In this document: positions 6,426 to 42,798 of the stretch, piece by piece | Position numbering within the stretch: the stretch's first letter is position 1 | How the letters are laid out: each line of letters opens with the position of its first letter | Source of the DNA: Laceyella sediminis | Lineage (GTDB): Bacteria; Bacillota; Bacilli; Thermoactinomycetales; Thermoactinomycetaceae | Assembly (NCBI RefSeq): GCF_003003125.1 | Contig: NZ_PVTZ01000002.1 | Location: 1-64,000 of the forward strand | Reading direction: 5' to 3' | Length of the DNA stretch: 64,000 bases | Program-made: the position numbers and the translations under genes | Notes under the pieces: generated by a model | Database searches by the model: none | Told to the model about the DNA's origin: nothing | The model's input: only the letters and a program-made list of their open reading frames with translations

Positions 6426-6438
6426 AGGCATAGGGTAA

Positions 6439-6560: not shown

Positions 6561-6684
6561 GCCAATTGAAGAGTAGGAGTGGACCTTATCATGCAAAATA
6601 AAGCAATCCTTATAGAATCAGACAAAAAATATTCAAAGTAAAAAGCCATTAGCTAAAAAACCGCTATAACATATTTCCTCGAAA

Positions 6685-7248: not shown

Positions 7249-7300
7249 GTTCGTTCCTCCATTACTAATGTTAAAAACAGTATAACACTTTTTTTGAACA

Positions 7301-8932: not shown

Positions 8933-9020
8933 TAGGCGTTCACCTTCCGGTTATTTTTTGTTACAACCCTATTTTATGTCAACTGGAAATAGAAGGAAAT
9001 ATTTTAAGTTGAAAAGTAAA

Positions 9021-9042
9021 AAGCAACGGATATTCCGTTGCC
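9021..9042 (-). terminator. intrinsic terminator between Abi gene and toxin gene
   Basis: The stem GCAACGGA/TCCGTTGC is followed on the minus strand by a T run. It separates the Abi-type gene (ends 9197) from the toxin gene (starts 8932), so the two are transcribed independently. Confidence 0.7.
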
Positions 9043-9196
9043 TTCACTAATTGATTTAAAACAACATATTGCTCCTATCAATACTATCTAAATAAAGCAA
9101 TTATCTCTATTTATTTTTCTCTCATTACATATGCGTTAATACCATAATCGCAAAACTAGCATTTTTTCCTTCCTTAACTATGTTCTTCTTAGCCTA

Positions 9197-10009: not shown

Positions 10010-10019
10010 TCTTAACTAT

Positions 10020-10100
10020 ACAAAAAAAGCCCGACATCTCGGGCTTAGGTTTGGTGCTGATGACAGGATTCGAACCTGCGACCCCTTCATTACGAGTGAA
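10020..10100 (-). repeat. att site overlapping tRNA-Thr 3' end
   Basis: The partner of the 81-bp repeat at 6345-6425. This copy contributes the 3' half of the intact tRNA-Thr gene plus its terminator (AAGCCCGA/TCGGGCTT then T run on the minus strand). Confidence 0.85.
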
Positions 10101-24093: not shown

Positions 24094-24168
24094 GCGCCTA
24101 TAGCTCAGGGGATAGAGCACTGGTCTCCGGAACCAGGTGCCCAGGTTCGAATCCTGGTAGGCGCGCCA
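24094..24168 (+). tRNA. tRNA-Arg (anticodon CCG)
   Basis: A 75-nt cloverleaf with acceptor GCGCCTA/TAGGCGC, anticodon stem CTGGT/ACCAG around loop CTCCGGA, T-loop GGTTCGAATCC and encoded CCA. Its 3' portion is repeated at 38768-38819, so it is the integration site of the following 14.6 kb element. Confidence 0.95.
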
Positions 24169-24173
24169 AAACC
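24122..24173 (+). repeat. attL in tRNA-Arg
   Basis: 43 bp (24122-24164) identical to 38768-38810, then one mismatch (the discriminator base) and eight more identical bases. It starts in the anticodon stem, typical for tyrosine-integrase elements using a tRNA 3' end. Confidence 0.9.
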
Positions 24174-24320
24174 TAATAAATGCCGATATTATCAAGCGAT
24201 TGTCTGATCGTCAGGCTAACCGATAGCACACGGTTTCTGCTCGATAATAAAGGCGACCGGGAGACGTCTTCTAACGTGTTTTTGCGCTTAGCGATGACAC
24301 GAAAGGAGGCGTCTTTTGTT

Positions 24321-25334
24321 ATGTCCAGAAAAGGAAAGCGTATCGTAACTAGACGCAGAGAGTTTATTGAACCAACATCGACGGATTCCGATATGACGAT
24401 TCAAGAGGCATTTGATTATTTCGTTAATTTAAAGAAAACCGAAGGAGTAAAACAGCGTACAATTAACGATTATTACATGTTAATGGGTTATTTTACCGAG
24501 TGGCTAAACGAACAACACCCTTCTATCGAAAGAATCGAAAACATCAACACAGGAACGATCCGGGAATACATAATCTATTTGAGCGAAGAAAGATTTAACG
24601 AGCAGACAGGGGAATATGGACTATCACCTTACACGGTTAACGTTCGCATCAGATTCTTAAAAGCATTCTTTAATGCGCTTTACCGTGAGGAAATCATTCG
24701 TAGAAATCCGTGTGAGGGAGTAAGCCTAATGCGGGTGAATGAGGACACATTCGAGCCATTAACGGACGATGAAATTGAAAGGTTACTTGGCGCACCAAAT
24801 ACCCGCGAATATGCCCAATTCCGTGATTTGGTCATCATGTATTTGATGTTGGACACAGGTATGCGCATTTCCGAAGTGTGCAATTTAGAGGTTTCCGAGA
24901 TCGATTTTAAAACAAGGGCAATTATCCTTCCATCACATAAAAACAAAAATCGCAAACCAAGGATACTCCCTTTGTCTAATCACGTTTTAAAGCTCCTAAT
25001 GGAGTTAGTCACAGAGAATAAAACTCATTTTGATACCAATTTCGTATTTGTCTCCAACTGTGGAACTCGGTACAATCCAAATTCATTTCGTAAACGATTG
25101 CTGATTTATAAAAAGAACGCAGGAATCACAAAGAGGGTCAGCCCTCATTTATTCCGTCATATGTTTTGTCGGAATTACATTTTAAATGGTGGAGATGTGT
25201 TCACATTACAACGAATTGCAGGACATGCCGATATATCAACCACTCGCAAATATGTTCAAATGGACGACAAAGCAATCAAGGATCAACATGCACAGTTTAG
25301 TCCTGTATTAAGGATTAGAAAAAAATTCAAGTAG
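24321..25334 (+). CDS. int: tyrosine recombinase/integrase
   Basis: A 337-residue integrase. An N-terminal SAM-like core-binding domain (residues 25-125) precedes the catalytic domain with Arg182 (GMRISEV), Lys near 207, His276-x-x-Arg279 (HLFRHMF), His302 (GHADIST) and nucleophile Tyr311 (RKYVQM). Start ATG 24321 has AAAGGAGG upstream. It lies about 150 bp inside attL at tRNA-Arg and is the obvious enzyme for integration of the 24169-38767 element. A decayed homologue follows the downstream att copy at 38940-39690. Confidence 0.93.
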   Translation: MSRKGKRIVTRRREFIEPTSTDSDMTIQEAFDYFVNLKKTEGVKQRTINDYYMLMGYFTEWLNEQHPSIERIENINTGTIREYIIYLSEERFNEQTGEYGLSPYTVNVRIRFLKAFFNALYREEIIRRNPCEGVSLMRVNEDTFEPLTDDEIERLLGAPNTREYAQFRDLVIMYLMLDTGMRISEVCNLEVSEIDFKTRAIILPSHKNKNRKPRILPLSNHVLKLLMELVTENKTHFDTNFVFVSNCGTRYNPNSFRKRLLIYKKNAGITKRVSPHLFRHMFCRNYILNGGDVFTLQRIAGHADISTTRKYVQMDDKAIKDQHAQFSPVLRIRKKFK

Positions 25335-26489: not shown

Positions 26490-27173
26490 TTACAAACAAA
26501 AATATTCTTTTCGAATTCTTGCTGATGTTATTTTTCCAGCCTCAGCAAAAACATCTAAGAGTTCTTCGTAGGTATTAGGATCGTTGCCAAGTTTATTCCA
26601 AAGTTTGGAACCAATTAAAACGAATCTATCGTCTTCCATATCGAACCACGGATCAGGAACTGTCCAGCTTTTTCTATATGGCTTTCCTTCTCCTGATGGA
26701 TTATAGGGAAGCGCAAAAAAGGCCTCACAATTCGGATCGGTAGAGCGTAAATACAAGAGGTTTCTTTTTGCCTCTTTGGTTTGGTCTTTATTTGGCTTTA
26801 CTGTTTTGAATGAATAATACTCTTCATGACCATCTGGGCGACGGACATAAAGGTCGGAGATCACCTTAACCTGCTGGTATTTGTCAATATCAAGACTAAT
26901 GATCTTATCCAATTCTGCCTGCAAGTCAGGAAATTCTTTTCTTCTGCCTTGAGTCCTTTTGGGGTTATTGACTAATCTTTCTATTTCATCAATACGCCAA
27001 GAATTGATAGTTAGTTCGGTTTTATATTGATTCTTTGCATATGCACCACTACCTTCTGCAATAATTCTTCCGATTTGTTCAAAAACCGCCGATCCTAAGC
27101 TACTCGAGAAAGAACGTTCAAATGTCGATCCTTTCCAAACTTCAATAGGTGCTAATCGATAGCCGAACTTCAA
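26490..27173 (-). CDS. TdeIII-family restriction endonuclease, N-terminally truncated
   Basis: The 227-codon frame opens at TTG 27173. It contains the TdeIII family blocks IWKGS/VWKGSTFERSFSSSLG, the catalytic core SDLYVRRPDGHEEYYSFKTVKPNKDQTKEAKRNLLYL (D…Y/E…K arrangement) and FALPYNPSGEGKPY. Family members usually have some 30 further residues before VWKGS; here homology ends exactly where the divergent integrase fragment begins (about 27170), so the gene has lost its 5' end. No cognate cytosine or adenine methylase lies beside it, consistent with an inactive remnant. It is convergent with the gene at 25519. Confidence 0.7.
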   Translation of the reverse strand: MKFGYRLAPIEVWKGSTFERSFSSSLGSAVFEQIGRIIAEGSGAYAKNQYKTELTINSWRIDEIERLVNNPKRTQGRRKEFPDLQAELDKIISLDIDKYQQVKVISDLYVRRPDGHEEYYSFKTVKPNKDQTKEAKRNLLYLRSTDPNCEAFFALPYNPSGEGKPYRKSWTVPDPWFDMEDDRFVLIGSKLWNKLGNDPNTYEELLDVFAEAGKITSARIRKEYFCL

Positions 27174-27735: not shown

Positions 27736-28465
27736 GATACCCTAACATACCGGAACATACTCCCACAGTGTAACGTCTATAGGGATTCTTATCATCCCCA
27801 CCCGTCTACATAGTCTTACGCCTATTCTATGAAGAGAGCATGGCTAATTGTTCTATTCTTTCTTAGAAGATTGATAGCGGGAGATGGTCGTATACTCTTT
27901 GACTTAACAGAATCAGACTGACGAACCAATAGCGAATAGATACGATCTAACGGCTATGGCTTTAATTGTTTCGTTCTTCTCATTCTCAATGTTTTCGTTA
28001 TTCATTAATTGTTGCATGAAAAGAATACAAAGGAGATAACAAGGAACCGTTTTTCTTTTTTGTTTTGGTCAACAAAATTAAAAGGATAAACGTTAGGAAC
28101 GCATCTCAGTGCCATTTATTCGCGCTCTGTAGGGTTTTAACTTGTTCTTATGATAATTTCCCTTCTCTGAAATTTAACCGTCTTAAAATGAGAATAAGCG
28201 GCTCCTGTTATGAGTTTTCGGATAATTACACCCCCCAAAGGGGGTATTGATTATGGCTTCGGCTGGCTGTCAAAGATCACGCATACCATTTTCAAACCGA
28301 GGGGTTAATCGTTTTAAAGATTCCGATTACTATTCATGCATGCTATCGGGAAAATGATTCCGACTTTTATTTTTGTGTCCTTTTTTGGTTACTCCTATGC
28401 GCTTTTGTAAAAGACGAGTGTTACCCCGTCAAAGATTACTGAAGTACAATCAGGAGGAAATCGGA
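27736..28465. other. 730-bp non-coding region of the element
   Basis: No credible gene: the 61-codon frame at 28065 lacks a ribosome binding site. A hairpin ACCCCC/GGGGGT lies at about 28230. Its place between replication-like genes would suit an origin, but I see no iterons or nick-site motif to support that. Confidence 0.35.
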
Positions 28466-29020
28466 ATGGCAAATGAAACCGTAGGAAATCGCATAAAAGA
28501 ACGACTAAACGGACGGTCAATTCCGAAACAACGCGTCTATGACAAGACGAAAGAAAAAGAATCGATCTTTTTCCGACTACCCAAAGAGATCGAACACTAT
28601 GTCTATATCCCTGAATTTCGTCCCGAAATGATTTATTTGTATGCGTTGATTTCCGATTACTACAACAGTGAAGAAGGTTATGCTTTCCCTTCGGTTGGAA
28701 CGCTTTCTATTCGCTATGGAAGAAATGAGGGAACAACCCGGCAACATTTAAAGGTACTTCAAGCTGTTGGACTTTTAGAAATCACACATAGGGAAGGATA
28801 TTCAAGCATTTATCGCCCGCTTTATCCACTAAAGGAAGCCGATTTTTACGGAGTTTTTCCCGAAGCAATGGAAGAACGGAAGAAAGCCGAAACCCAAGTC
28901 GAGAAAGAACGGCAGCGATCCAAGGCAAAAAGAAAGTTTAGGAGTGTAGATAATCAAGAAAGTGTAGTTAACCAAGAACAACAGCCTATGACACTAAAGG
29001 AAATGTTGGACTGGCTTTAG
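28466..29020 (+). CDS. winged-helix protein, replication-initiator-like
   Basis: A 184-residue protein. Start ATG 28466 is preceded by AGGAGG; the frame upstream is not needed. Residues about 40-120 (IPEFRPEMIYLYALISDYYNSEEGYAFPSVGTLSIRYGRNEGTTRQHLKVLQAVGLLEITHREG) form a helix-turn-helix as in the N-terminus of RepA/DnaD-type replication proteins ('YAFPS…' pattern). A charged coiled segment and a C-terminal TLKEMLDWL follow. Probably part of the element backbone, directly before the 196-bp repeat that begins the cargo cassette. Confidence 0.6.
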   Translation: MANETVGNRIKERLNGRSIPKQRVYDKTKEKESIFFRLPKEIEHYVYIPEFRPEMIYLYALISDYYNSEEGYAFPSVGTLSIRYGRNEGTTRQHLKVLQAVGLLEITHREGYSSIYRPLYPLKEADFYGVFPEAMEERKKAETQVEKERQRSKAKRKFRSVDNQESVVNQEQQPMTLKEMLDWL

Positions 29021-29037
29021 GGTTCAGCATTTTTTAT

Positions 29038-29233
29038 AAAAGAGGAGTGCAAAAATCGTAAAGAGGGATAGTCAATTATTGACGGTAAACTAGAATTACT
29101 AAACAAGAATTAAAGAACAAGAATTAATGATTACAAGCCCAGTCTTGCGACTGTACTTGTTAGCGGCATTTATATCTATCTAATTACGATTACTTTTTAT
29201 TCGGAATAAGGGATAAGGTTACTGCCGTTAAAA
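29038..29233 (+). repeat. 196-bp direct repeat, left copy
   Basis: Identical to 35757-35952 at 195 of 196 positions, offset 6719 bp; weaker similarity (TTAGGGTTC) extends left to 29017. The two copies enclose the regulator/RiPP/methyltransferase cassette. No open frame or att-like core is evident inside the repeat. Confidence 0.95.
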
Positions 29234-29296
29234 CAAAGTAAAGGACGATAAAGAGATAACATATTTTAAAGACCGTAAATAATCCGATTTAAATTA

Positions 29297-29331
29297 AAAA
29301 GGCTTTCGGAATGCCCGAAAGCTCTTTTTTA
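29297..29331. terminator. terminator downstream of the HTH-TPR gene
   Basis: GGCTTTCGG/CCGAAAGC hairpin with A run before and T run after, so it can act in both directions. Confidence 0.75.
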
Positions 29332-29390
29332 TTACCAATCATTAAAATCTTATTATTACTGTGATACCATCCGGACGATTACTTTACTTG

Positions 29391-29444
29391 CTAATCGTCA
29401 TCACTATCGTCATCACCCAACCGGATAGATAAACTAAAAATCAT
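29391..29444 (-). CDS. 17-residue ORF overlapping the regulator 3' end
   Basis: ATG 29444 is placed 7 nt after GAGGAGG, overlaps the HTH-TPR stop by 11 nt in another frame, and reads MIFSLSIRLGDDDSDDD then TAG. The good ribosome binding site and coupling to an RRNPP-like receptor are what one expects for a cognate signalling peptide gene, but the peptide is short and has no secretion signal. Coding status is uncertain. Confidence 0.35.
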   Translation of the reverse strand: MIFSLSIRLGDDDSDDD

Positions 29445-30765
29445 AAAGCTCCTCCTCGCTTTGCAAGTCGATGTCGCCTTGGATTTTAAGCAACTCTTTA
29501 TAACATCGAACCAAGTCATCGTTTTTATCCATCTTATCAAAACAATGAGATAACATCAATAAAGCCGTACTAAGCCTTTGTTTAAAGCCGTGTGTTCGCA
29601 GTAGTTCCGCAGCTTCTTCGTAAAAGGGAACCGCCTTATTATATTGTCCTTGATAAAAGAAATAATTCCCTCGAACAATTAAAGCCTTCGCCAACCGGTA
29701 AGAATCCCCAACTTCTCGCCCCATCCTGATAGCTTCGTCCAGATGTACATCAGCCTGTTTCCAATCGGCTAACTGGATGAAAAGAGTCCCAAGATTACTT
29801 AGAGAATCAATGTTTCTACGGGGATAATTGCTACCTGCGTCCATCCAAAGGACAATTTGAAAGCATTTTCGGGCTTTTTCATATCTATTTTGTTTTAGAT
29901 AAACTGTCCCTAATATATTTAACAAATCAAGGTGACGGTTTTTAATGTCATTTCTTACAGCAATTTCGATTCCTTCTTGACAGACTTTAATCGCTTCTTC
30001 ATAATCCCCTCTTCCCCTTAAGATAGCAGCACGAAAACGATATATGTTGAGAACAACACGAATATTTTCGATTTCCGAAAGATGTTGCCAGAGGTCATTA
30101 AGGATTTGAGCAGCGTGATCAGACTGCCCCATTTTCAAAAGATATTGTATTTTATTGCTTTGTAAACGTTGCTTAACCTCTTTTCTTCCTTTATTTTCAT
30201 CAAATACCTCTAATCCCTTATTCACATAGTGAAGAGCATTGGTTAAATCATTTTTCAGAAACGAATTATTGCCCAGTTCTTTATAACAATAGGCCAAAAC
30301 ATTGGTTGGCGGGTCTATGTTGTTTTTTTCGGCAAGCCTAATTACATTGATGAATATATCATTGGCTTTTTTTAAATCATCTTTAAGGCGGTAGTATCTT
30401 CCCTCCAAATAACGAATGGACAGCGCAAGTGGATGAAAGTTTTCAATCTCAATATTTTTTAGCTGTTCCATCGCTATCTCTTCGTTCCCTTTCTCCATAA
30501 TCGCTTCAATACTTTTAAGAGTAAGATTTAAGTCCTCCATTTTCTCTCTTTCTTTTTTTACCTCTTGATGCAGTTTTTCAACAGGATAAAGGTTAATCTG
30601 TTTCAAAAAGTGAATGAAAGTATCATCTGTGACTGGGATTTTTCCATTTTCAATATTACTTACCGTAGCAGTTGATATGCCAGCAATATCTTCTTGACGA
30701 AGTCCGTGCGCTTTTCTCATTTTTTTAACGACATACCGAACTAAAACTTCATCTCGATTGTTCAT
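29434..30765 (-). CDS. HTH-TPR transcriptional regulator, RRNPP-like
   Basis: A 443-residue protein. Start ATG 30765 (MNNRDE) follows GAAGGTGG; the ATG five codons upstream is less well placed. Residues 8-65 form an Xre helix-turn-helix (VKKMRKAHGLRQEDIAGISTATVSNIENGKIPV). About nine TPR-like helical repeats follow (FINVIRLAEKNN, CYKELGNNSFLKNDLTNALHYVNKGLE, GTLFIQLADWKQADVHLDEAIRM). It shares architecture with the regulator at 3767 in the other island. It is divergent from the small Cys protein at 31027 and is the first gene of the repeat-flanked cassette. Likely controls the cassette; ligand unknown. Confidence 0.8.
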   Translation of the reverse strand: MNNRDEVLVRYVVKKMRKAHGLRQEDIAGISTATVSNIENGKIPVTDDTFIHFLKQINLYPVEKLHQEVKKEREKMEDLNLTLKSIEAIMEKGNEEIAMEQLKNIEIENFHPLALSIRYLEGRYYRLKDDLKKANDIFINVIRLAEKNNIDPPTNVLAYCYKELGNNSFLKNDLTNALHYVNKGLEVFDENKGRKEVKQRLQSNKIQYLLKMGQSDHAAQILNDLWQHLSEIENIRVVLNIYRFRAAILRGRGDYEEAIKVCQEGIEIAVRNDIKNRHLDLLNILGTVYLKQNRYEKARKCFQIVLWMDAGSNYPRRNIDSLSNLGTLFIQLADWKQADVHLDEAIRMGREVGDSYRLAKALIVRGNYFFYQGQYNKAVPFYEEAAELLRTHGFKQRLSTALLMLSHCFDKMDKNDDLVRCYKELLKIQGDIDLQSEEELYDF

Positions 30766-31026
30766 TTTATCCACCTTCATTCAATTCTGATAATTATATT
30801 ATGGCATAAAGTCTAATGACCATAGACACATATTTAGCTTAAGGCCGAATTTTAAAGTTTATGTGATTAGAAGATGACAAAAACAGCATAAACGAGTGTT
30901 TCAGTATTTTACTGGGTCCGATTTCAATTCAAACATTAAACAAAGCTAAAAAATGGAAGGTTATAATTTAATTATCAAGGAATTCCGATCAATCAAAATC
31001 TACTGCTTTGGAGAAGGAGGAATGGC

Positions 31027-31215
31027 ATGAACGTGGCAGTGTGTTGTTGCGGAAACAAAATTGATCTGAAAGTATCTGCTTATCGATGCCCAGACTGCTT
31101 AAAACTTTTGCCTACCGTAGCGACATCTGATGCAGGAAAGACAAAATCAGTCAATGAAACTTGGAGAAAGTTAAAAATGGCACTTGGTGAACTTGAGGAG
31201 GTTAGCAAATGCTAA
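31027..31215 (+). CDS. small cysteine-rich protein
   Basis: A 62-residue protein with CCCGNK near the start and YRCPDC at about residue 20, a likely zinc ribbon. AAGGAGG precedes ATG 31027 at 7 nt. It overlaps the next gene (31209) by 7 bp, so the two are translationally coupled. Unknown function. Confidence 0.65.
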   Translation: MNVAVCCCGNKIDLKVSAYRCPDCLKLLPTVATSDAGKTKSVNETWRKLKMALGELEEVSKC

Positions 31216-31520
31216 GACTTCGAGTAGAAGGGCCAGCTAATCAGGTAAGGACATTCATTCGCGATTTTTCGGTTCTTCCACAACATAATGTGAAAGCTAC
31301 GTCAAAACCGTACCAGGATGAGCATTTGGAAAACGGTGATGTGAGATCGTTTTGTCACTTCGAATATTATCCGTTAAACGTGATTCATCAGCCGATCACT
31401 GTTACATTTGGAACTCCCGATGGAAAAGATTTAACATTTGCATTGTTGCGGGGAAGTGTCCTTAGAATCGGTGATGTTATTTCTGTTTCGGGTAAAGTAA
31501 CACCAAGGCTTTTAAAGTAG
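31209..31520 (+). CDS. small unknown protein, paralogue of the one at 3180
   Basis: A 103-residue protein whose N-terminus (LRLRVEGPANQVRTFIRDF) matches that of the protein at 3180-3512. Ribosome binding site GAGGAGG is inside the preceding gene. In both islands this family neighbours an HTH-TPR regulator and a radical SAM enzyme. Function unknown. Confidence 0.65.
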   Translation: MLRLRVEGPANQVRTFIRDFSVLPQHNVKATSKPYQDEHLENGDVRSFCHFEYYPLNVIHQPITVTFGTPDGKDLTFALLRGSVLRIGDVISVSGKVTPRLLK

Positions 31521-31526
31521 TAGACG

Positions 31527-31560
31527 AAAAAAAGAGCCGATATTATTCGGCTCATAAATG
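31527..31560 (-). terminator. terminator between convergent genes
   Basis: GAGCCGA/TCGGCTC hairpin, T run on the minus strand; it serves the methyltransferase gene at 31594 and lies between convergent transcripts. Confidence 0.65.
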
Positions 31561-31593
31561 AAGATGTTTTTGTTGTCAACCCTTTTTCTGATT

Positions 31594-32202
31594 TCATTTA
31601 CCTGCCAAAAAGATATAAAATGAAAGCTCCGGGTATTTATTATCCATGTACACTTTCTCAATAGTGTATTTGGATTCATAAATGTAATTTTCGAATTGTC
31701 TTGGATGGTGGTATCTTACAAAGTCCATATAAAGGATGCGACCATCCTTTTTAACCAAATTGAAACACTGGTTTAGTATATCGTCATATGCTCCAGATTC
31801 TTTCACTGTTGACCCAATAACAGTAACAATATCAAACTGCGCATTGTCTAAACTTGTGAATAATACATCTTCGCAAATAACTTTCGATGGATTGGGATGG
31901 TTTTCTTTGGATTGTCTATAACGAAATATGTCACAAATATCTTTGTTTTTATCTATACTCGTGAGTTGACCCATTCCATTTAGCCAAAAACCCAAAAAAT
32001 CGTCCCATTCCCCCGATCCGATTCCCACATTGCAAACTTGGATTCCTGGAAATAAATTAAGATGCTTTTGCACAAAATCTCGAATTGTTGATTCGATGTA
32101 AAGATTTTGCGGGGAAATGTTCCATTCGTATGCTTCGGGTTGTCTTGAATCCAGATAATATTTGAGAAGTTTTTCGTCAGTGATTTGTTCGTTAACTATC
32201 AT
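31594..32202 (-). CDS. class I SAM-dependent methyltransferase
   Basis: A 202-residue protein. Motif I is VCNVGIGSGEWDDFL near residue 57, followed by an acidic residue after the next strand (SIDKNKD), and a motif-IV-like FDIVTVIGST. The substrate is unknown. It is divergent from the radical SAM gene (starts 32362) within the repeat-flanked cassette, so it may modify the peptide product or a small molecule. Alternatively it is unrelated cargo. Confidence 0.75.
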   Translation of the reverse strand: MIVNEQITDEKLLKYYLDSRQPEAYEWNISPQNLYIESTIRDFVQKHLNLFPGIQVCNVGIGSGEWDDFLGFWLNGMGQLTSIDKNKDICDIFRYRQSKENHPNPSKVICEDVLFTSLDNAQFDIVTVIGSTVKESGAYDDILNQCFNLVKKDGRILYMDFVRYHHPRQFENYIYESKYTIEKVYMDNKYPELSFYIFLAGK

Positions 32203-32295
32203 TGTGTTCTCCCCTGCTTATTCGGCTCCTGTTGCTTGTTATTATTTCTTGAAAAAGTGAATGAAATACTGAAAAAACAATGCGAATGAAAACAA

Positions 32296-32343
32296 CTATA
32301 AGGTATAATGAATTATGAAAATTTATTTATTTTTACCTTATAG
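32296..32343 (+). promoter_or_regulatory. 10-bp perfect inverted repeat over radical SAM promoter
   Basis: CTATAAGGTA (32296-32305) and TACCTTATAG (32334-32343) are perfect inverted copies 38 bp apart. The left arm overlaps the -10 box TATAAT (32304-32309), and the right arm lies just before the radical SAM start. This is a good operator candidate for the cassette regulator; as RNA the right arm could also form a leader hairpin. Confidence 0.6.
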
Positions 32344-32361
32344 ACGGAAATGAGGGGTAAA

Positions 32362-33522
32362 ATGCAAGAGCAAGTCCCACAAGACGTGCATATTGCTAAG
32401 AAGATCCGTCAACAACTGATTCCAATGATTGTTCAATGGGAAATCACTCAACGCTGTAACTGGAACTGTAGATTTTGCTACCAGGATGAGCATATCACAG
32501 AAGTATTAAGTACAGAAGAAATTCAGCGTGTTATTGATGATTTTAGTGAATTGGGAACTCTCAAACTTATCTTAACAGGCGGTGAGCCTTTAGTAAGAAA
32601 AGATTTATTTCAGATTGCTGAGTATGCGAAGAAAAAGGGAATAGTTCTTTGCCTGTACTCCAACGGTGAAAAACTAGCTGATCCAGAAATAGCAGAAAAA
32701 GTATCACGGATGTTTGCAGAAGTGGAGATCAGCATATTAGCTGGCGATTCAGAAATTCATGATGAACTCTCCCGAAAAAAAGGCTCCTTCTATAAGACAC
32801 TCCAAGGAATCAAGAATATCCACGCCAATGGTACGAAAGTCCTTGTAAAAACCCCGGTTACAAGAAAAGCACTTCCTTCTTTGAAAAAATTAGAATCCCT
32901 CCTGCAAGAACTTAGCCTTGAATGGAATGTAGATGTCGATATTACACCCACTTACGAAGGTTCCTTTGTTCCAACTGATGATTTTTCTCTCACCTATGAG
33001 GACATGAAGCAGTTCTGGGTCGATTTTCCGCAATATTCAAGTCTCCTAATGTTCCCTCCAGATTATGCAAACCTCGACCCGAATCCTGATTCAGATGGAC
33101 TATGCCGCGCAGGTCGTAACTTCTGTTTTATTGATGCCAAAGGAAATGTATATCCTTGTCTCCAATTCAAAATTGGAATGGGTGAAGAAAGTAGTAGCTC
33201 TACATCATGGGCCGGCAATGGACCATCCGCAAACTGTGGAAATATCAAAGAAAAATCCTTTAAAGAGATTTGGAATCAATCTCCAATGTTTCAAAAAATC
33301 CGTTCGATTACAGCACGAGACTTAACAATCTGTACGACATGCGATGCCTTTAAGGACTGTCCGAAATGTATGGCTAATAATTACCGTGCTTGGGGAGTGA
33401 TCGATATTGCCGGTCCATCAACTTGCAACAAGACAGCAACAAGCATGAAGTTAAGAAACGAGAATTTCGAACCTGCCGGAATAAGGAGAACGAGAAACCT
33501 AGGATTGAAGCCACGAATGTGA
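32362..33522 (+). CDS. radical SAM/SPASM peptide-modifying enzyme
   Basis: A 386-residue enzyme. Start ATG 32362 follows GAGGGG; an in-frame ATG lies 12 bp upstream. The SAM cluster motif is CNWNCRFC (Cys32, Cys36, Cys39), with LTGGEPL near residue 75. The C-terminal ~150 residues hold a SPASM-like set of cysteines (GLCRAG…FCFIDAKGNVYPC, then NCGN, ICTTC, CPKC and STCNK) that would bind auxiliary Fe-S clusters. Enzymes of this build make thioether or C-C crosslinks in ribosomal peptides. The next gene, 11 bp away, encodes a Cys-rich precursor-like peptide and the one after it a PqqD-like protein, which supports that role. Confidence 0.88.
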   Translation: MQEQVPQDVHIAKKIRQQLIPMIVQWEITQRCNWNCRFCYQDEHITEVLSTEEIQRVIDDFSELGTLKLILTGGEPLVRKDLFQIAEYAKKKGIVLCLYSNGEKLADPEIAEKVSRMFAEVEISILAGDSEIHDELSRKKGSFYKTLQGIKNIHANGTKVLVKTPVTRKALPSLKKLESLLQELSLEWNVDVDITPTYEGSFVPTDDFSLTYEDMKQFWVDFPQYSSLLMFPPDYANLDPNPDSDGLCRAGRNFCFIDAKGNVYPCLQFKIGMGEESSSSTSWAGNGPSANCGNIKEKSFKEIWNQSPMFQKIRSITARDLTICTTCDAFKDCPKCMANNYRAWGVIDIAGPSTCNKTATSMKLRNENFEPAGIRRTRNLGLKPRM

Positions 33523-33541
33523 TTGAAGGGAGGTGATTCCG

Positions 33542-33673
33542 ATAAAAGCGAACAAAACGACCGCGACGGTCAAACGTCCATATGTGAAACCCGTTATTCG
33601 CCCTTATGGTGTTGTGGAAGCAGTGGCGTTCACTGGGAAGTCTTCGAATAGTTGCAGAACTTGCTGTGTATAG
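33542..33673 (+). CDS. RiPP precursor peptide, apparent ATA start
   Basis: A 43-codon frame. The leader contains YVKPVIRPYGVVEAVAFTG, closely matching the YxxPxLxxxGxxxxxTx motif that PqqD-like (RRE) proteins bind in lasso-type leaders. The last 11 residues, KSSNSCRTCCV, give a core with Cys38, Cys41 and Cys42. A near-consensus ribosome binding site GGGAGGTGATT (33528-33538) leaves 8 nt before ATA 33542, with no ATG or TTG available; GTG 33533 lies inside the ribosome binding site and GTG at 33584 would cut off the leader motif. It sits between the radical SAM enzyme and the PqqD-like gene and is followed by a terminator. No lasso cyclase, peptidase or exporter is nearby. Confidence 0.72.
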   Translation: MKANKTTATVKRPYVKPVIRPYGVVEAVAFTGKSSNSCRTCCV

Positions 33674-33687
33674 CTTATTCGCTGATA

Positions 33688-33721
33688 CCCTAGGGGGATT
33701 AAAAATCCCCCGCCTTTTTTA
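33688..33721 (+). terminator. terminator between precursor and PqqD-like gene
   Basis: AGGGGGATT/AATCCCCC with six to seven T following. Placed inside the operon, it would favour precursor message over the downstream genes. Confidence 0.8.
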
Positions 33722-33736
33722 GAAAGGAGAAAGAAT

Positions 33737-34012
33737 ATGCGCATTCAAGTGAATTTGGCTAAAGTGGGATGGACTAGAATTGATGGGCAGTTGGTCATTT
33801 ATCGCCCAGAAAACGAAAAATATTTCGTTTGCAATGAAACAAGCGAATTTATTTGGCAAATATTAATTGAAAAGGCTGTAACAGTTCAGGAACTTATCCA
33901 GTCATTTCAAAAATACTATGATTGTGAGCCGGATTTGGTTGAAGCAGATATATTGCAAGTCATTGAACTGTTAAAAGAGGAAAGCATTATACTTGTGGAA
34001 GAAACTGCATAA
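33737..34012 (+). CDS. PqqD-like RiPP recognition protein
   Basis: A 91-residue protein with the PqqD fold pattern: three N-terminal strands (LVIYRPENEKYFVCNETSEFIWQILIE), then helices (VQELIQSFQKYYDCEPDLVEADILQVIELLKEESIILVEE). Such RREs bind leader peptides and present them to the modifying enzyme. AGAAAGGAG precedes ATG 33737. Its order after radical SAM and precursor is standard for RiPP clusters. Confidence 0.85.
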   Translation: MRIQVNLAKVGWTRIDGQLVIYRPENEKYFVCNETSEFIWQILIEKAVTVQELIQSFQKYYDCEPDLVEADILQVIELLKEESIILVEETA

Positions 34013-34066
34013 TTCCGCTATAATATATTCTAATATTACTGAAAGTATAGAATTGTGGTGTCTGTG

Positions 34067-34903
34067 ATGAAAAAGGAACGTTTGGATGTTTTGCTTGTTC
34101 AAAAAGGCCTATGCGCTACTCTAGACATTGCTCAACGAATGATTTTATCGGGTTATGTCTTTGTTAATCAGGAAAGAATGCAACATGTAGGGACTAAAAT
34201 CAAAATCGACAGCTCTATAGAGTTAAAACTTAAAAATCTAAAGTATGTGAGTAGGGGAGGCCTTAAGCTAGAAGAAGCACTTCGGGTCTTTCCCGTACAT
34301 ATGGAAGATCGCGTAATGTTAGACATTGGTGCATCTACGGGCGGGTTTACGGATTGCGCTTTGCAACGTGGAGCTAAGCGGGTCTATTCCATTGATGTAG
34401 GATACGGACAGCTAGCGTGGAAACTGAGACAAGACCCCCGAGTTATCGTGATGGAACGGACAAATTTCCGCTATCTAAAAAAAGAAGACCTCACAGGTGA
34501 GCCGCCAAACTTAGCGACAATCGATGTTTCCTTTATTTCTCTGTCCCTTATCTTCCCAAAACTACGAGAATTGTTACTTCCTAATGGAGAAGTGGTTTCA
34601 CTTGTGAAACCACAATTCGAAGCTGAACGACATCAAGTAGGAAATCGCGGGATTGTTCGAGACAAGCATATTCATCAGCAAGTCTTGGAACGTTTTGTTC
34701 AGATAGTTCAATCAAATGGTTTTACTGCTTTTCAACTTGCTCCTTCTCCAATTCAAGGTAATGAAGGGAATATTGAATTCCTTGCCTACTGTAAATTTCA
34801 GTATGAAAAAGAACAGATTGATTTACACATTGAAGAAATCGTTCAACAAGCACATGAACGATTTAGTTTAAAACATAGCGAGGAGATTGATTATGGCTGC
34901 TAA
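34067..34903 (+). CDS. TlyA-type rRNA 2'-O-methyltransferase, copy 1
   Basis: A 278-residue protein with an N-terminal S4 RNA-binding domain (RLDVLLVQKGLCATLDIAQRMILSGYVFVN) and an FtsJ-type methyltransferase domain (LDIGASTGGFTDC SAM loop). Residues Lys68, Asp153, Lys181 and Glu237 correspond to the catalytic K-D-K-E set of TlyA, so it looks active. TlyA methylates ribose 2'-OH groups in 16S and 23S rRNA. Start is ATG 34067; the frame begins at 34055. TlyA is normally a single chromosomal gene near xseA/dxs, so a mobile pair is notable. It overlaps copy 2 by 11 bp. It could protect ribosomes against the cassette's peptide; that is inference. Confidence 0.85.
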   Translation: MKKERLDVLLVQKGLCATLDIAQRMILSGYVFVNQERMQHVGTKIKIDSSIELKLKNLKYVSRGGLKLEEALRVFPVHMEDRVMLDIGASTGGFTDCALQRGAKRVYSIDVGYGQLAWKLRQDPRVIVMERTNFRYLKKEDLTGEPPNLATIDVSFISLSLIFPKLRELLLPNGEVVSLVKPQFEAERHQVGNRGIVRDKHIHQQVLERFVQIVQSNGFTAFQLAPSPIQGNEGNIEFLAYCKFQYEKEQIDLHIEEIVQQAHERFSLKHSEEIDYGC

Positions 34904-35720
34904 AAAGAAGCAACCTCTCTGGGAAGCGCTAATTGATAGAGGTTTCTTTGAAGATCGGAAAACTGCTACAAGTTGGATTATGATGGGTAAAGTTCTTGTC
35001 AACCAACAACGTGCTTCTAATGCTGGTGAAATGGTCAAAGAAGATGCAAATATCCAAGTTAAAGGAATTGACCTGAAATATGTTGGTAAAGGTGGACTTA
35101 AATTAGAAGGCGCAATCGCTCAATTTGGCATTGATGTAAATGGACGGGTTTGCTTGGACACAGGAGCATCTACGGGCGGGTTTACGGATTGCCTCATACA
35201 GCATGGAGCCAGCCGTACATATGCAATTGATGTGGGATTTGGTCAACTGGCTGGAAAACTACGACAGGATGAACGAGTTGTAAACATGGAAAAAACCAAT
35301 ATTGGTGATGTTAAGGTTGAACATCTAACTCCGCGTCCATCTCTGGCTACAGTTGACTTGTCTTATCTCTCCTTGAAAAAGGCGATACCAATTATTAGTG
35401 AACTGTTAGATGAAAATGGAGAAATGTTATGTTTAGTAAAACCGTTATTCGAAATTGAGGACTCCAAAGTTAGAAGAACTGGAGAAATTGAAAGTCCAGA
35501 CCAATATAAGGCAGTATTAGAAGACCTCGTGGAATTTTCCGATGAGTTTGGTTTAAATACTTTAGGTGTTACTCATAGTCCAGTTACCGGTAATAAAGGA
35601 ACACATGAATTTTTTCTATGGACATCTTTAGATAAGTCAAAAGAGAGACGGAATTTAGACGAAGATATTAGAACTGCAATAGACAGAGTAATGAAACTTC
35701 AACCATACAAAAATAATTAG
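34893..35720 (+). CDS. TlyA-type rRNA 2'-O-methyltransferase, copy 2
   Basis: A 275-residue paralogue of the preceding gene with the same S4 plus FtsJ build. GGLK70, TVD155, LVK183 and HE239F match the catalytic set. A GAGGAG site precedes ATG 34893 inside copy 1, giving translational coupling. A 27-nt block around the SAM motif (34331-34357 and 35166-35192) is identical in the two copies although the rest has diverged, hinting at gene conversion. Two copies may target different rRNA sites. Confidence 0.85.
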   Translation: MAAKKKQPLWEALIDRGFFEDRKTATSWIMMGKVLVNQQRASNAGEMVKEDANIQVKGIDLKYVGKGGLKLEGAIAQFGIDVNGRVCLDTGASTGGFTDCLIQHGASRTYAIDVGFGQLAGKLRQDERVVNMEKTNIGDVKVEHLTPRPSLATVDLSYLSLKKAIPIISELLDENGEMLCLVKPLFEIEDSKVRRTGEIESPDQYKAVLEDLVEFSDEFGLNTLGVTHSPVTGNKGTHEFFLWTSLDKSKERRNLDEDIRTAIDRVMKLQPYKNN

Positions 35721-35756
35721 AAAGAGCTAATGGTATTAGGGTTCTGTGATTTTTAA

Positions 35757-35952
35757 AAAAGAGGAGTGCAAAAATCGTAAAGAGGGATAGTCAATTATTG
35801 ACGGTAAACTAGAATTACTAAACAAGAATTAAAGAACAAGAATTAATGATTACAAGCCCAGTCTTGCGACTGTACTTGTTAGCGGCATTTATATCTATCT
35901 AATTACGATTACTTTTTATTCGGAATAAGGGATAAGGTCACTGCCGTTAAAA
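35757..35952 (+). repeat. 196-bp direct repeat, right copy
   Basis: The partner of 29038-29233 (one mismatch). It follows the second TlyA gene by 36 bp and ends the cassette; the element backbone resumes with genes from 36291. Confidence 0.95.
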
Positions 35953-38767: not shown

Positions 38768-38819
38768 GGTCTCCGGAACCAGGTGCCCAGGTTCGAATCC
38801 TGGTAGGCGCACCAAAACC
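38768..38819 (+). repeat. attR: duplicate of tRNA-Arg 3' end
   Basis: 43 bp identical to 24122-24164, then A instead of G at the discriminator, then CCAAAACC. The 5' half of the tRNA is absent. Homology to the 24174-24330 region (including the integrase leader) continues after it, showing a second related element inserted in tandem. Confidence 0.9.
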
Positions 38820-38939
38820 AGATATCACCGCAATTTATGAGCGCTTGTCTAATACCGCAAATAAACTGCCGGTTTGCACAACACCTTCTAGCGTGTTTCT
38901 GTATCTTAGCGGATCAGAACATGCTGGGAGGTGTTTTTC

Positions 38940-39690
38940 ATGTCTAAAAAGGTAAGCACATTATAACCAGACGCAGAGACTTCACGAAACTATCCCCCAT
39001 TATTGACCTTCCTATAATAGACCTTTAACCACTTCATTAACTTGAAGAAAACGAAGGCGTCCGCGAGCATACAAGCGATTACCACATGCTTATGGGCAAT
39101 TTCCTCAACGGCTTAACGAAACTTACCCCGATATTAAAACCATAAACCAATTAATGCCGCCATACTTCGCGCCTACACCATTTACCTAAGCAATTATCGC
39201 TATAACGAGCAAGCAGACGCGAAAAAGGGCTTTCTATTTACCACCGTTAACAAATACCAGAGAATAAGCGCAATTCAGGGACTTGGTAATTATGTACCTG
39301 ATACTGGACACAGGCATGCGTATTTCCGATATCTGCAACCTAGAGCTACAAGACATTGATTTTAAAACACGAGCTTTTATTCTGCCCGCACACAAGAACA
39401 AGAACCGAAAGCTACGAATCATAACATTATCTATCCACGTAGTAAAGCTGCTGTTAGAGCCTGTAACCTAAAACAAGGCGCACTTTGATACAAAATATGT
39501 CTTCCTGTCTAACTGCAGCACTCAATATAACCCTAATTCATTTAGACGCCGCCTGCTCATTTATAATGAAAAAGCAGGCATCGAAAAACGAGTAAGCTCG
39601 CATTTATTCCGCCATATGTTCTAAACGGTGGCGATATATTCACGTAACAACGTATTGCAGAACATGCTGAAATATCCACTGGTCTGAGGG
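38940..39690 (+). pseudogene. decayed tyrosine integrase of a second element
   Basis: Fragments homologous to the integrase at 24321 occur in order: an MSKKGKHIITRRR-like start near 38941, DTGMRISDICNLELQDIDFKTRAFILPAHKNKN (39283-39471), NPNSFRRRLLIYNEKAGIEKRVSSHLFRHMF (to about 39620), then broken AEISTG… Stops and frameshifts interrupt every domain, and the C-terminal Tyr block is lost. Confidence 0.85.
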
Positions 39691-40008
39691 GTTCAGTATA
39701 GAATATGTAACTTAGGAAATTGCTATGGAAAATTAAGGGACAGCAGACGGAAATTTTGCCTGATATAAGGGTGTTTCCTGCGCCGCGGAATTTCTTTGTA
39801 TCCGTTTTGCATTAAATCTAATTCAAATGACTGTAGAATATAACAATGCAAAAGATTGAAGTCTTATCATCTTCTATGTGAATAATATTATTTATAAGTA
39901 TTATAAGACTGGTAAACTTTATATGTATCGCAGATTCTTAATGCCGCTTTTATTTTAACGGAAGGTCAGATAAACTTATAAAGCAAAGAGGAAAAACTAG
40001 GTGATAAA
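39691..40008. other. gene-free stretch before the R-M system
   Basis: No open frame or hairpin that I can support. It probably contains the promoter of the R-M genes (TTATAA-like boxes near 39970). Confidence 0.4.
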
Positions 40009-40227
40009 ATGGCATATACCTCCTCAGAAGCAGGTAAAAGATTGGCGGAAATAGTCGGACGTGACAAGCCATACTCAAAGCAATATATCCATAAACTATG
40101 TAGTACCGGTGCTCTAAGGCACATGAAAGTAGGAACTAATAACTTACTTATTATAACAGAGGAAGACCTACATGATTACGTAAGAACTAGCTACAATCCT
40201 AAAGTGGGTAGACCTAAAAATAGTTGA
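40009..40227 (+). CDS. small HTH protein of the R-M locus
   Basis: A 72-residue protein of the excisionase/HTH_17 type (YTSSEAGKRLAEIVGRD…YIHKLCSTGALRHMKVGTNNLLIITEEDLHDYV). Such proteins bind DNA as controllers or excisionases. It is 70 bp before the methylase gene, so a controller role for the R-M system is plausible but not proven. Confidence 0.6.
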   Translation: MAYTSSEAGKRLAEIVGRDKPYSKQYIHKLCSTGALRHMKVGTNNLLIITEEDLHDYVRTSYNPKVGRPKNS

Positions 40228-40296
40228 CGCTCGTCAACAATAATGGTAGCCTTTATTATAGGCTTTAATCACCTTAAGCCGTGAGGATGTGTGAAA

Positions 40297-41514
40297 ATGA
40301 CTGCTACAAATAAGTTAGACTTAAGTAGCTATTACCGTTTAAACTATGACGAGGATGTACCACACATTATTAAGTATATGGGGTCAAAGCGAAACTTAAT
40401 GGGCTTTGTAGTTGAGGGCATTTCAGAAGTATATAAGGGTGGAGTAGTTTGCGACTTGTTTGCAGGCTCTAGCGTCTTAGCAGGCGCTCTAAGAGATCAG
40501 GTTCCTATACTGTCTAACGATATTCAGGAGTATTCTGCGGTATTGGCTAAGACATACCTAGGAGATTATAAGTGGAGCGACAATACAACACTAATTGAGG
40601 ATGTTGTGAGTAAAGCATCTGAGATTGTAAAGCAGTTTAAGCAAAGTTACCCGTATTTATACTTTGATTATGATCGCCCTTTTACATTAGATGAGTTTAT
40701 TAAGCTAGAAGAAGAGCAGCGCCAGCTGGTAAATGAGGACTTTTCTAAGTTCCCTTATCACCTTTTCACAAAAAACTATTCAGGAAGGTATTGGTCTTAC
40801 GACCAATGTGTATGGATCGATTCTATTAGAGCGGTAGCTGATGATTACAAAGGTACACCTTATTATTATGCTATTATCTCTAGCCTAATGTTTGCTATGT
40901 CGTACAATTCTCAAAGTACAGGGCATTATGCGCAATATAGAGATGCTACGTCCGTTGCGTCAATGAACGACATTCTAATTTATCGTAGGAAAGAAATACT
41001 TCCATTCTTTATACGTAAAATGGAAGAATTTAAGCAAAAGTTCGGGCGGAATCAGCTAAAGCATGTAATAGTTTCGATGGATTACAGAGACTGCCTAGAT
41101 ATTCTTCCATCTGGAGCAACTGTCTATGCTGACCCACCCTACTGTTTTGTACATTATTCCCGCTTCTATCATGCAATTGAGACACTTGTAAAATACGACT
41201 ATCCAGAGGTCAAGTATAAAGGCAGATACAGAACTGATCGACACCAGTCCCCTTTCTGCATTCGTACTCAGGTAGCAGGCGCATTTGAAGCCATGTTTAG
41301 TAAGATTAAGCAAAAAGAGGCTAACTTAGTGCTCAGTTACAGTAACACAGGCATGATTGATTTAGAAAAATTGTTAAAGTTATCCCAAAAAATTCTAGGT
41401 TCTGCTTATCAAATCGATGTAAGGCTACTTGACTACCAACATAGTACGATGGGGCGCAGAGAAGATAAAAGCAGAGACGTGAAAGAGTGTCTAGTGATAG
41501 CTAAAACCCAATGA
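40297..41514 (+). CDS. D12-class N6-adenine DNA methyltransferase
   Basis: A 405-residue enzyme. PHIIKYMGSKRNL at the start and VCDLFAGSSVLAGAL (SAM-binding motif I) are followed by YADPPYCFVHYSRFYH (DPPY, motif IV), with a large recognition insert between, the D12 order (Dam, DpnM). Start ATG 40297 has GAGG 10 nt upstream. It is convergent with the restriction gene at 41516, whose stop lies one base away. D12 enzymes often methylate GATC-containing sites, which fits the BglII/BstYI-like endonuclease. Confidence 0.88.
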   Translation: MTATNKLDLSSYYRLNYDEDVPHIIKYMGSKRNLMGFVVEGISEVYKGGVVCDLFAGSSVLAGALRDQVPILSNDIQEYSAVLAKTYLGDYKWSDNTTLIEDVVSKASEIVKQFKQSYPYLYFDYDRPFTLDEFIKLEEEQRQLVNEDFSKFPYHLFTKNYSGRYWSYDQCVWIDSIRAVADDYKGTPYYYAIISSLMFAMSYNSQSTGHYAQYRDATSVASMNDILIYRRKEILPFFIRKMEEFKQKFGRNQLKHVIVSMDYRDCLDILPSGATVYADPPYCFVHYSRFYHAIETLVKYDYPEVKYKGRYRTDRHQSPFCIRTQVAGAFEAMFSKIKQKEANLVLSYSNTGMIDLEKLLKLSQKILGSAYQIDVRLLDYQHSTMGRREDKSRDVKECLVIAKTQ

Positions 41515-41515
41515 C

Positions 41516-42175
41516 TTAATTATCTTCTACATAGAGCTCTTTAGAGATGCCAAATACTAATAATGGACAACCTCCGCCCCCTCCACCCTGGATGCGGGGC
41601 AATAATTTTGACATGTGTGTAGTAGAAGTGCCATACTTACTTCCTTTTCCAAGTTTATTAAATAATTCTTGTAAGTGGTCGCATCTAGTTATAATAATAC
41701 CAACACTTATTGCTTGTAACTCAAACAACAAACGGAAATTATTTAAATCACGATCAAAAAAAGGGTCTTTATTGTTCCACTCAATTTCTAAGGCTATCTT
41801 ATTCTTATAACAATCAACCTTATGTGTTGGTGAATCAAAAGCATTGTCGTCTATAACTACTTGTGTTTTAAAAGACCTCTCTTCCCAACCAAGGCTATAA
41901 AAGTGTTTATCAATCATATTGGAAACTTTAGACTTTCTGCCCCCTCCATCTACTATACTACTTTTTGGTAATCGAAAATTTTCTAGAACAGTAAGAATAT
42001 CGTCCCATTCGTTTGGAAAATCATTTTTTAATATTGCGCAAGCATGGCGCCATTCATGTACTTCATACAAATCAGTAATATGTTTAGGTAGTAGTTCAAT
42101 GCCCACGTTATAAACACCCTCTTTAGAACATTTTTTATATAAAGAAATATTTTTAATACTACACATATTATACAT
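41516..42175 (-). CDS. BglII/BstYI-like type II restriction endonuclease
   Basis: A 219-residue protein. A PD-(D/E)xK-like core is visible in HKVDCYKNKIALEIEWNNKDPFFDRDLNNF (Asp…Glu-x-Glu) followed by LQAISVGIIITRCDHLQ. An unusual run of six glycines precedes CPLLVFGIS at the C-terminus. This resembles the BglII/BstYI family, whose members cut around GATC. It pairs tail-to-tail with the D12 methylase. The specificity AGATCT or RGATCY is a prediction from family only. Confidence 0.72.
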   Translation of the reverse strand: MYNMCSIKNISLYKKCSKEGVYNVGIELLPKHITDLYEVHEWRHACAILKNDFPNEWDDILTVLENFRLPKSSIVDGGGRKSKVSNMIDKHFYSLGWEERSFKTQVVIDDNAFDSPTHKVDCYKNKIALEIEWNNKDPFFDRDLNNFRLLFELQAISVGIIITRCDHLQELFNKLGKGSKYGTSTTHMSKLLPRIQGGGGGGCPLLVFGISKELYVEDN

Positions 42176-42342
42176 ACACTTAAGCAGTTTTACGAGAATC
42201 CATAAGAATCTAATAAATATAGGAGGCCTTACCTTTAGATGTCCTTTCTTTTATGAAGATGCTTTTAGCATCCACAAGCGTGTCAGAGAATTTACGCCAG
42301 CTGCTCATACATGAGTTGCACTATTGCTGATGATATGAAAAA

Positions 42343-42729
42343 GTGAACGCCCTAGCAGAAGTGCTTGTATGTGAAGACACAGCGAAGGTACGGGGCGCGT
42401 TATTGAAGCCAGGCAAAAATACGCAGAAATTGAAACGTATTATATATCCCTTACGGGAAATTGAAGCACAAGGAAAAGCCTCGAAGGACTATGAACACAA
42501 AGCGCTACAGCTTGCTCATAAACTCAAGCGCGATTACCAGCGCATTGTGAAAGACATTCAGAAGCAGGCCGAGGACGTGCTATTTTCGCCTGTCGATCCG
42601 CCAAGCGAACACGAACGCCGACTAAATAACATGCAGAAAAAATTGGAAAATGTCGTACTGTTTGTGGTTAGCGCTTAGCAGGCGCAGGACGCGTTGGGAA
42701 AATTAGCGGAGCAATCCGCTAAAAATCAC
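42343..42729 (+). pseudogene. helical protein with premature amber stop
   Basis: From GTG 42343, 111 charged helical codons run to TAG 42676. The same frame then continues 17 codons (QAQDALGKLAEQSAKNH) to TAA. There is no ribosome binding site at the GTG and an upstream in-frame stop, so both ends look damaged. Not recognised. Confidence 0.45.
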
Positions 42730-42756
42730 TAATTAGGCGCATTATATTGCGCGTTT

Positions 42757-42798
42757 GAAAACCGTTCCTCTTGTGAGGGACGGTTTTTTCGTTTTATT
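42757..42798 (+). terminator. intrinsic terminator
   Basis: AACCGTTCCTC/GAGGGACGGTT followed by TTTTTT, separating the remnant from the core protease gene. Confidence 0.8.

Follow-up and report, generated by a model that had tools for sequence, protein, structure and literature searches.

Why should two genes of the TlyA family, a family of ribosomal RNA (rRNA) 2'-O-methyltransferases, lie directly beside the genes of a peptide-modification pathway? The question arises from a stretch of 64,000 nucleotides of Laceyella sediminis DNA (assembly GCF_003003125.1, contig NZ_PVTZ01000002.1, positions 1 to 64,000; hereafter the window), in which direct repeats enclose a cassette of about 6.7 kb. A sequence-only reading of this block had listed a helix-turn-helix and tetratricopeptide repeat (HTH-TPR) regulator, an S-adenosylmethionine (SAM) methyltransferase, a SPASM radical SAM enzyme, a Cys-rich peptide, a PqqD-like protein and two TlyA proteins, and all of these were recovered by open reading frame (ORF) and family scans (Table 1). 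It had taken them for a locus producing a ribosomally synthesised and post-translationally modified peptide (RiPP), with the TlyA pair conferring immunity to the product. Taken as a whole, the part of this reading that concerns a mobile RiPP locus next to an HTH-TPR regulator holds up, and immunity through the TlyA pair is unsupported. The explanation that we favour, and consider reasonably probable, is that a 14.6-kb element inserted in tRNA-Arg carries the block as cargo, and that the block encodes a radical SAM RiPP with a lasso-type leader, together with two accessory TlyA-family enzymes of altered specificity.

A radical SAM RiPP cluster and its relative in a second genome

The short precursor gene adjoins both the maturase gene and the gene for a PqqD-like RiPP recognition element (RRE), as is characteristic of RiPP loci, and the C-terminal part of the peptide reads ...YVKPVIRPYGVVEAVAFTGKSSNSCRTCCV. 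Independent support came from a second Bacillota genome, G511, found in a sample of 398 genomes of the phylum. Its radical SAM protein is 40% identical to that of the window (E 4.5e-77), and the neighbourhood encodes a 36-residue peptide (MSKKIYVKPEIIEIGNLETVVLSGGRSSSRCRTWCR), a lasso B2 protease above its NCBIfam cut-off, a PqqD-like RRE, an HprK-like kinase below its NCBIfam cut-off and, judging from translations, two ABC transporters and a nucleotidyltransferase-like protein without an NCBIfam match. The two RREs share 30% identity over 77 aa. In registers that we chose, 9 of 19 aligned leader residues are identical, with a common YVKPxI motif, as are 6 of the 11 core residues, a value reached by 369 of 200000 shuffles; both cysteines of CRTxC are kept in the two cores. 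Leader and core are conserved in an independent cluster, albeit in this one genome, and the cassette gene set is partly conserved there, more than by chance. With YVKPxI in the leader and CRTxC at the end of both peptides, the two probably belong to a genuine RiPP family. The available part of PMC4289311 gives no description of the G511 cluster.

Relatives of the radical SAM enzyme were sought in 200 related genomes, 42 of the order, 398 of the phylum, 37 of the class of G511, 398 of the window's class and 13 of the class of G263; these sets are partly redundant, and the larger of them are samples. Only G511 and G034, apart from the window itself, stood clearly above the radical SAM background in the genomes searched, and in G034 a gene 80% identical to that of the window is broken by a contig end (apparently contig JAJYSD010000313.1). 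Further genomes passed the 1e-30 or 1e-35 threshold (1 in the phylum, 5 in the class of G511 and 13 in the window's class, at E of about 1e-34 to 1e-44), and their matches were treated as other radical SAM families; the 13 genomes of the class of G263 yielded no relative. Distant radical SAM relatives are common, since 175 of the 200 related genomes match at E 1e-3. A one-sequence scan of genome contigs found no relative, while a three-row alignment scan returned L027, apparently the G034 contig, and two distant radical SAM genes, L028 and L029 (26-27% identity), near which no precursor resembling that of the window was seen. When 47 loci, most with short flanks and not covering every search match, were scanned with a leader-like regular expression, the only plausible precursors picked by eye among noisy hits were those of the window and G511.

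Viral contigs gave no match with the queries TlyA2, A2, A3 and TlyA1, nor with a 28-mer of the repeat. By tblastn, the radical SAM protein matched 465 plasmid and 36 phage records, TlyA1 16 phage records and TlyA2 36 plasmid records, all below 60% identity; the DNA of 33530-35720 matched three plasmid records in short pieces at 60-80%.

The leader points to lasso peptides, for which a YxxPxL motif and a penultimate Thr are given as leader features in an excerpt of PMC10368454. Like the lasso pathways with split B1 and B2 proteins (paeninodin type), the cassette combines a YxxPxL/I leader motif with a discrete PqqD-like RRE, and the G511 cluster adds the B2 protease and the HprK-like kinase. 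Unlike them, it encodes a radical SAM/SPASM enzyme where a cyclase would be expected: no asparagine-synthase-like cyclase was present among the cassette proteins scanned, and none was recognised by eye in the G511 neighbourhood (L025). The cores KSSNSCRTCCV and (G)RSSSRCRTWCR also have no Asp or Glu, and so lack the acceptor found at positions 7-9 of a lasso core. The accessible portion of the RRE-Finder survey (PMC7470986) describes about 300 discrete RREs of the lasso type found together with radical SAM enzymes, and the general arrangement is therefore already known; a lasso-leader radical SAM RiPP as mobile cargo would be a variant of it. That portion names no CRTxC core, tandem TlyA pair or mobile setting.

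The radical SAM proteins of the window and G511 both contain CX3CX2C and the SPASM signatures CX12GX4C and CX2CX5CX2C. The best solved-structure match of the window's enzyme is SkfB (E 3.1e-11), and its NCBIfam matches, with AhbD, NirJ, MftC and StsB among the top ones, all lie far below their cut-offs. The cassette resembles the sactipeptide and ranthipeptide systems (StsB, PapB, SkfB) in having a SPASM radical SAM maturase and a Cys-containing core. It differs from them in its separate lasso-type RRE and lasso-like leader, and in a maturase that falls well short of the curated cut-offs (StsB, 122.7 bits against 625; PapB, 72.1 against 340). A PADLOC match to viperin (E 8.2e-24) was rejected, as the NCBIfam viperin score is 68.3 bits against a cut-off of 180 and the protein has a SPASM domain, which is not known from bacterial viperin.

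Maturation of the precursor and functions missing from the cassette

In the pathway that we favour, lasso-style leader recognition would be retained and the radical SAM/SPASM enzyme would replace the lasso cyclase. The PqqD-like RRE may bind the YVKPVI part of the leader and offer the short core with its cysteines to the radical SAM enzyme; the latter would install at least one radical cross-link, most likely a Cys-derived thioether. Cleavage of the leader after Thr-Gly would follow, with the B2 protease of a lasso cluster elsewhere in the host as the probable trans-acting enzyme. Such a pathway would be a compact case in which leader recognition of the lasso type serves a radical SAM enzyme and not a lasso cyclase, and the complete G511 cluster offers a guide for its reconstitution.

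The sequence-only reading had noted that no exporter or leader peptidase is present, which is true of the cassette, but the genome encodes a lasso B2 protease elsewhere. The one PF13471 (B2 protease) match of the genome, on contig C31, is above its cut-off and lies between a short lasso-precursor-like ORF (identified by eye, without a family match) and a lasso-cyclase-like gene. The latter is an asparagine synthase in Pfam, scores below the cut-off of the lasso cyclase model and reaches near the contig end. Given this gene, cleavage of the cassette leader in trans is conceivable, and the C31 protease could act on the cassette precursor.

Several observations weigh against the favoured explanation. 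The radical SAM family is tiny in the genomes searched, with one other complete cluster (G511) and one incomplete gene (G034). No family model above its cut-off identifies the chemistry of the enzyme, and its AlphaFold model is too poor for use (mean predicted local distance difference test score 49.7). The window peptide has three cysteines and the G511 peptide two. Neither an exporter nor a protease was found among the cassette proteins, and the distance from the leader-motif Pro to Thr-Gly is, by eye, two residues longer in the window than in the lasso-precursor-like ORF of the host, so that the host B2 protease may reject the window leader. Finally, the precursor gene lacks a well-placed canonical start codon: there is no in-frame ATG, the strong Shine-Dalgarno (SD) sequence GGGAGGTG at 33528-33535 overlaps the GTG at 33533, and at 33542, where the spacing would suit a start, the codon is ATA.

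The enzyme might instead perform other chemistry, such as a C-C or C-N cross-link or an oxidation, in which case the cysteines would form disulfides or bind metal. We regard this as somewhat unlikely. Its distant NCBIfam matches, spread over AhbD, NirJ, MftC and StsB, and the unequal cysteine counts of the two peptides are in keeping with it, but the CRTxC cysteines are conserved across two distant cores, and StsB and PapB, a sactipeptide and a ranthipeptide maturase, are among the matches of both radical SAM proteins.

The missing start codon means either that an unusual codon is used or that expression of the precursor is impaired, and it makes decay a live rival. The locus would then be a relic that had lost the protease, kinase and exporter of a once-complete cluster and translates its precursor poorly, as the absence from the cassette of the B2, kinase and ABC genes found in G511 would also suggest. 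However, the maturation and TlyA reading frames are uninterrupted and keep their catalytic and cluster-binding residues, the SD sequence, leader and core are intact, and the protease could conceivably be supplied from outside; on balance we think a relic unlikely. In a functional locus, the hairpin between the precursor and RRE genes could favour expression of the precursor over that of the downstream genes. Terminator-like hairpins occurred at 10 sites in the region against a shuffle mean of 4.9, and predicted promoters, at 18, did not exceed the shuffle mean of 20.3.

The TlyA pair

Both TlyA proteins have S4 and FtsJ domains and score above the TIGR00478 cut-off of 185.8 bits (281.5 for TlyA1 and 209.5 for TlyA2), which places them in the TlyA family. 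They are 43% identical to each other. The window's own genome has three TlyA copies; among the 41 remaining genomes of the order, 40 have exactly one, and G034, which is 67% complete, has none. In a 51-row tree, TlyA1 fell inside the TlyAs of the host order (31-row clade, support 100/97), with support of only 80/71 for its placement near part of the host family. TlyA2 grouped apart from these, in a clade with genes from other families (100/100), and drew a long-branch warning; the sampling is tilted towards TlyA2, whose best matches supplied the 19 rows that do not belong to the order. The low identity and the different clades led us to reject a recent local duplication as the origin of the pair, subject to the caveat of the long TlyA2 branch.

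Residues were compared in an alignment of 68 rows, comprising the two window proteins, 18 B-type rows (10 genes, 8 of them present twice) and 48 others taken as canonical, with numbering transferred from mycobacterial TlyA through alignments. No row departs from the catalytic Lys, Asp, Lys and Glu, the first three of which we take to be K69, D154 and K182. Of the canonical rows, 47 of 48 have Arg6, as do all 18 B-type rows, and TlyA2 has Pro there; Arg20 occurs in all 48 canonical rows but in only 8 of the 18 B-type rows and is Leu in TlyA1. Neither protein thus has both arginines of a TlyA that methylates C1920 of 23S rRNA, which together with C1409 is a canonical target of the family. According to the portion of PMC9403184 available, Glu238 is a catalytic residue of TlyA, substitution of Arg6 or Arg20 eliminates C1920 methylation by the mycobacterial enzyme, and E. 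coli lacks TlyA. Many B-type genes lack Arg20, and such arginine losses are therefore not unique to the window. At the position of Phe157, all 18 B-type rows have Tyr.

The pair has the domains, family score and K-D-K-E tetrad of known TlyA enzymes, and it is unlike them in its mobile setting and in joining two paralogue types in tandem, each without one near-invariant N-terminal Arg. Judged by these residues, both enzymes may be catalytically able, with target recognition that differs from that of the textbook enzyme. The two genes close the gene row on its 3' side, and their products would probably be active RNA 2'-O-methyltransferases with altered target recognition.

A second TlyA was present in each of eight genomes tested that have a TlyA2-like gene (G285, G570, G247, G319, G374, G398, G310 and G275; loci L079-L085 and L092). 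As these genomes were picked for the TlyA2-like gene, the second TlyA is the informative part, and the copy in G310 scores just below the family cut-off. This brings to light a B-type TlyA paralogue that coexists with a canonical-looking TlyA. By eye, a neighbour of the TlyA2-like gene resembles pheS in five of the eight loci.

How, then, are the TlyA genes related to the peptide? As a check on its proposal, the sequence-only reading had suggested looking for the combination in other mobile elements of Bacillota; the linkage of radical SAM enzyme, peptide and RRE recurs in G511, and that of TlyA does not. No TlyA occurs in the 19 kb of sequence inspected at the G511 cluster, and the only one found in that genome is about 335 kb away. 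An rRNA methyltransferase is thus absent from the one other complete cluster, a weak test given the single case.

The TlyA genes could be unrelated passengers of the same element and accidental neighbours of the RiPP genes, an alternative that we regard as a serious contender, somewhat short of even. It fits the different lineages of TlyA1 and TlyA2 and the G511 cluster without TlyA, and a TATAAT at 34019-34024, just 5' of TlyA1, may mark a separate promoter, although this site has no good -35 box and is not among the promoter predictions. Against it, TlyA1 starts 51-54 bp 3' of the RRE gene on the same strand and overlaps TlyA2 by 11 bp, which suggests co-transcription with the RRE gene.

The same spacing and overlap are also compatible with immunity. 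The peptide would here bind near helix 69/helix 44, and 2'-O-methylation of rRNA by a dedicated TlyA pair would block binding. That the host already has its own TlyA suggests a special role for the extra copies, and the catalytic tetrads of both are intact. The thiopeptide self-resistance enzymes Tsr and NosR provide the concept of protection through rRNA 2'-O-methylation; they belong to a different methyltransferase family from TlyA, and no thiopeptide genes were recognised in the cassette. The two lineages of the pair, the G511 cluster and the loss in each protein of an arginine reported as essential for C1920 methylation all argue against self-protection. In addition, the consulted text of PMC9403184 states that TlyA methylation is needed for optimal tuberactinomycin binding, that is, it sensitises ribosomes. 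We consider self-protection improbable.

The boldest extension of the favoured explanation is that the mobile RiPP locus carries a TlyA pair retuned to a new RNA target, which would remodel the ribosome to match the peptide; the two enzymes, each short of a different helix 69-recognising Arg, might then work jointly or at a new site. We hold this to be quite improbable. If true, it would be an rRNA-methylation partnership for a radical SAM RiPP, of which we found no published case; likewise no publication joining TlyA or rRNA-methyltransferase self-resistance with RiPPs was found in a search that left most subscription journals outside. A mobile element carrying retuned ribosome methyltransferases tied to a peptide product thereby becomes a testable proposition.

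Cassette bounds, the enclosing element and neighbouring islands

The cassette repeats are 222 nt long and 96% identical (217 bp and 97.2% by BLAST), and their spacing of 6719 bp agrees with the 6.7-kb repeat-bounded block described from the sequence. The repeats themselves had been given as 196 bp starting at 29038, which is slightly short of the actual 217-222 bp from 29012. Two copies were found in a search of the window's own genome. The repeat was also considered as a structured element and rejected, with a DNA-fold z-score of -1.17 and no Rfam match on it. That description had left unmentioned the ORFs at 31027-31215 and 31209-31520, the hairpin at 33693-33711, the non-canonical precursor start and the enclosing tRNA-Arg element.

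The cassette sits within this 14.6-kb element, and the sister species G001 has the unoccupied site: its sequence matches up to the equivalent of 24168 in the window and resumes four bases later at the equivalent of 42758. The element genes have a GC content of 35-48%, against about 52% in the flanking chromosome. The jump in the G001 match means that 38825-42757 is absent there too. This stretch is probably a second, decayed element in tandem with the first, as it contains an integrase-like stretch 71% identical to 24796-25165 and, between 38825 and 40291, no ORF of at least 130 aa.

Table 1. Coordinates of the cassette and element features within the window
Feature	Position	Strand	Basis or remarks
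tRNA-Arg (CCG), integration site of enclosing element	24094..24168	+	tRNA call; empty site in sister species G001
Left attachment repeat (tRNA 3' end), 57 nt	24122..24178	+	95% over 57 nt; BLAST 98% over 52 bp
Tyrosine integrase of element, 3' of left attachment repeat	24180..25334	+	phrog_1 integrase, E 1.4e-61
Replication-initiator/DnaD-like HTH protein, just 5' of left cassette repeat	28463..29020	+	DnaD-like helicase loader, E 2.1e-07
Left cassette direct repeat	29012..29233	+	repeat comparison, BLAST
HTH-TPR regulator, RRNPP-like architecture	29434..30780	-	family scans
62-aa Cys-containing ORF	31027..31215	+	no family match
103-aa small protein	31209..31520	+	no family over cut-off; relative fronts host lasso cluster, C31 (BLASTP E 2e-06, 29 aa)
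Class I SAM methyltransferase	31594..32202	-	family scans
SPASM radical SAM peptide maturase	32350..33522	+	family scans; ATG 32362 better-placed start (by eye)
Precursor peptide	33533..33673	+	leader YVKPVI...FTG, core KSSNSCRTCCV
Terminator-like hairpin between precursor and RRE gene	33693..33711	+	hairpin prediction
PqqD-like RRE protein, lasso B1 type	33737..34012	+	Pfam PqqD over cut-off; lasso models under curated cut-off
TlyA1, canonical-lineage TlyA-family methyltransferase	34064..34903	+	GTG 34064 or ATG 34067; K-D-K-E kept, Arg20 to Leu
TlyA2, divergent B-type TlyA	34893..35720	+	K-D-K-E kept, Arg6 to Pro, Phe157 to Tyr
Right cassette direct repeat	35731..35952	+	repeat comparison, BLAST
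Right attachment repeat	38768..38824	+	57-nt match to tRNA-Arg 3' end copy

The regulator of the cassette had been called peptide-responsive, and its HTH-TPR architecture, the one basis for that name, is confirmed. A 17-codon ORF (MIFSLSIRLGDDDSDDD, 29391-29444 on the minus strand), picked out by eye, overlaps the end of the regulator gene and might be a candidate signal peptide. Another HTH-TPR regulator, 26% identical to it, is encoded at 3707-5164. On contig C31 (G000, L103, 88-3887), an HTH-TPR-like fragment (by eye) stands in front of the lasso-like cluster, as does a relative of the small protein at 31209, as if one regulator and small-protein module fronted two different RiPP clusters. 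The methyltransferase at 31594-32202 is a possible tailoring enzyme.

Elsewhere on the element, 26490-27173 encodes a TdeIII-like type II restriction endonuclease. The tandem remnant holds a Dam-type adenine methyltransferase (40291-41514), which is the nearest DNA methyltransferase to the TdeIII-like gene among the proteins scanned, and a further gene at 41516-42175. Another island lies at 6345-10100, of which G001 lacks 6426-10019; its bounds are formed by an 81-bp direct repeat (95%) that overlaps a tRNA-Thr. It encodes a large protein (7301-8932) whose C-terminal end appears AHH-like by eye, with a small neighbour at 6685-7248; from their sequences, the two are possibly a toxin-immunity pair acting between bacteria.

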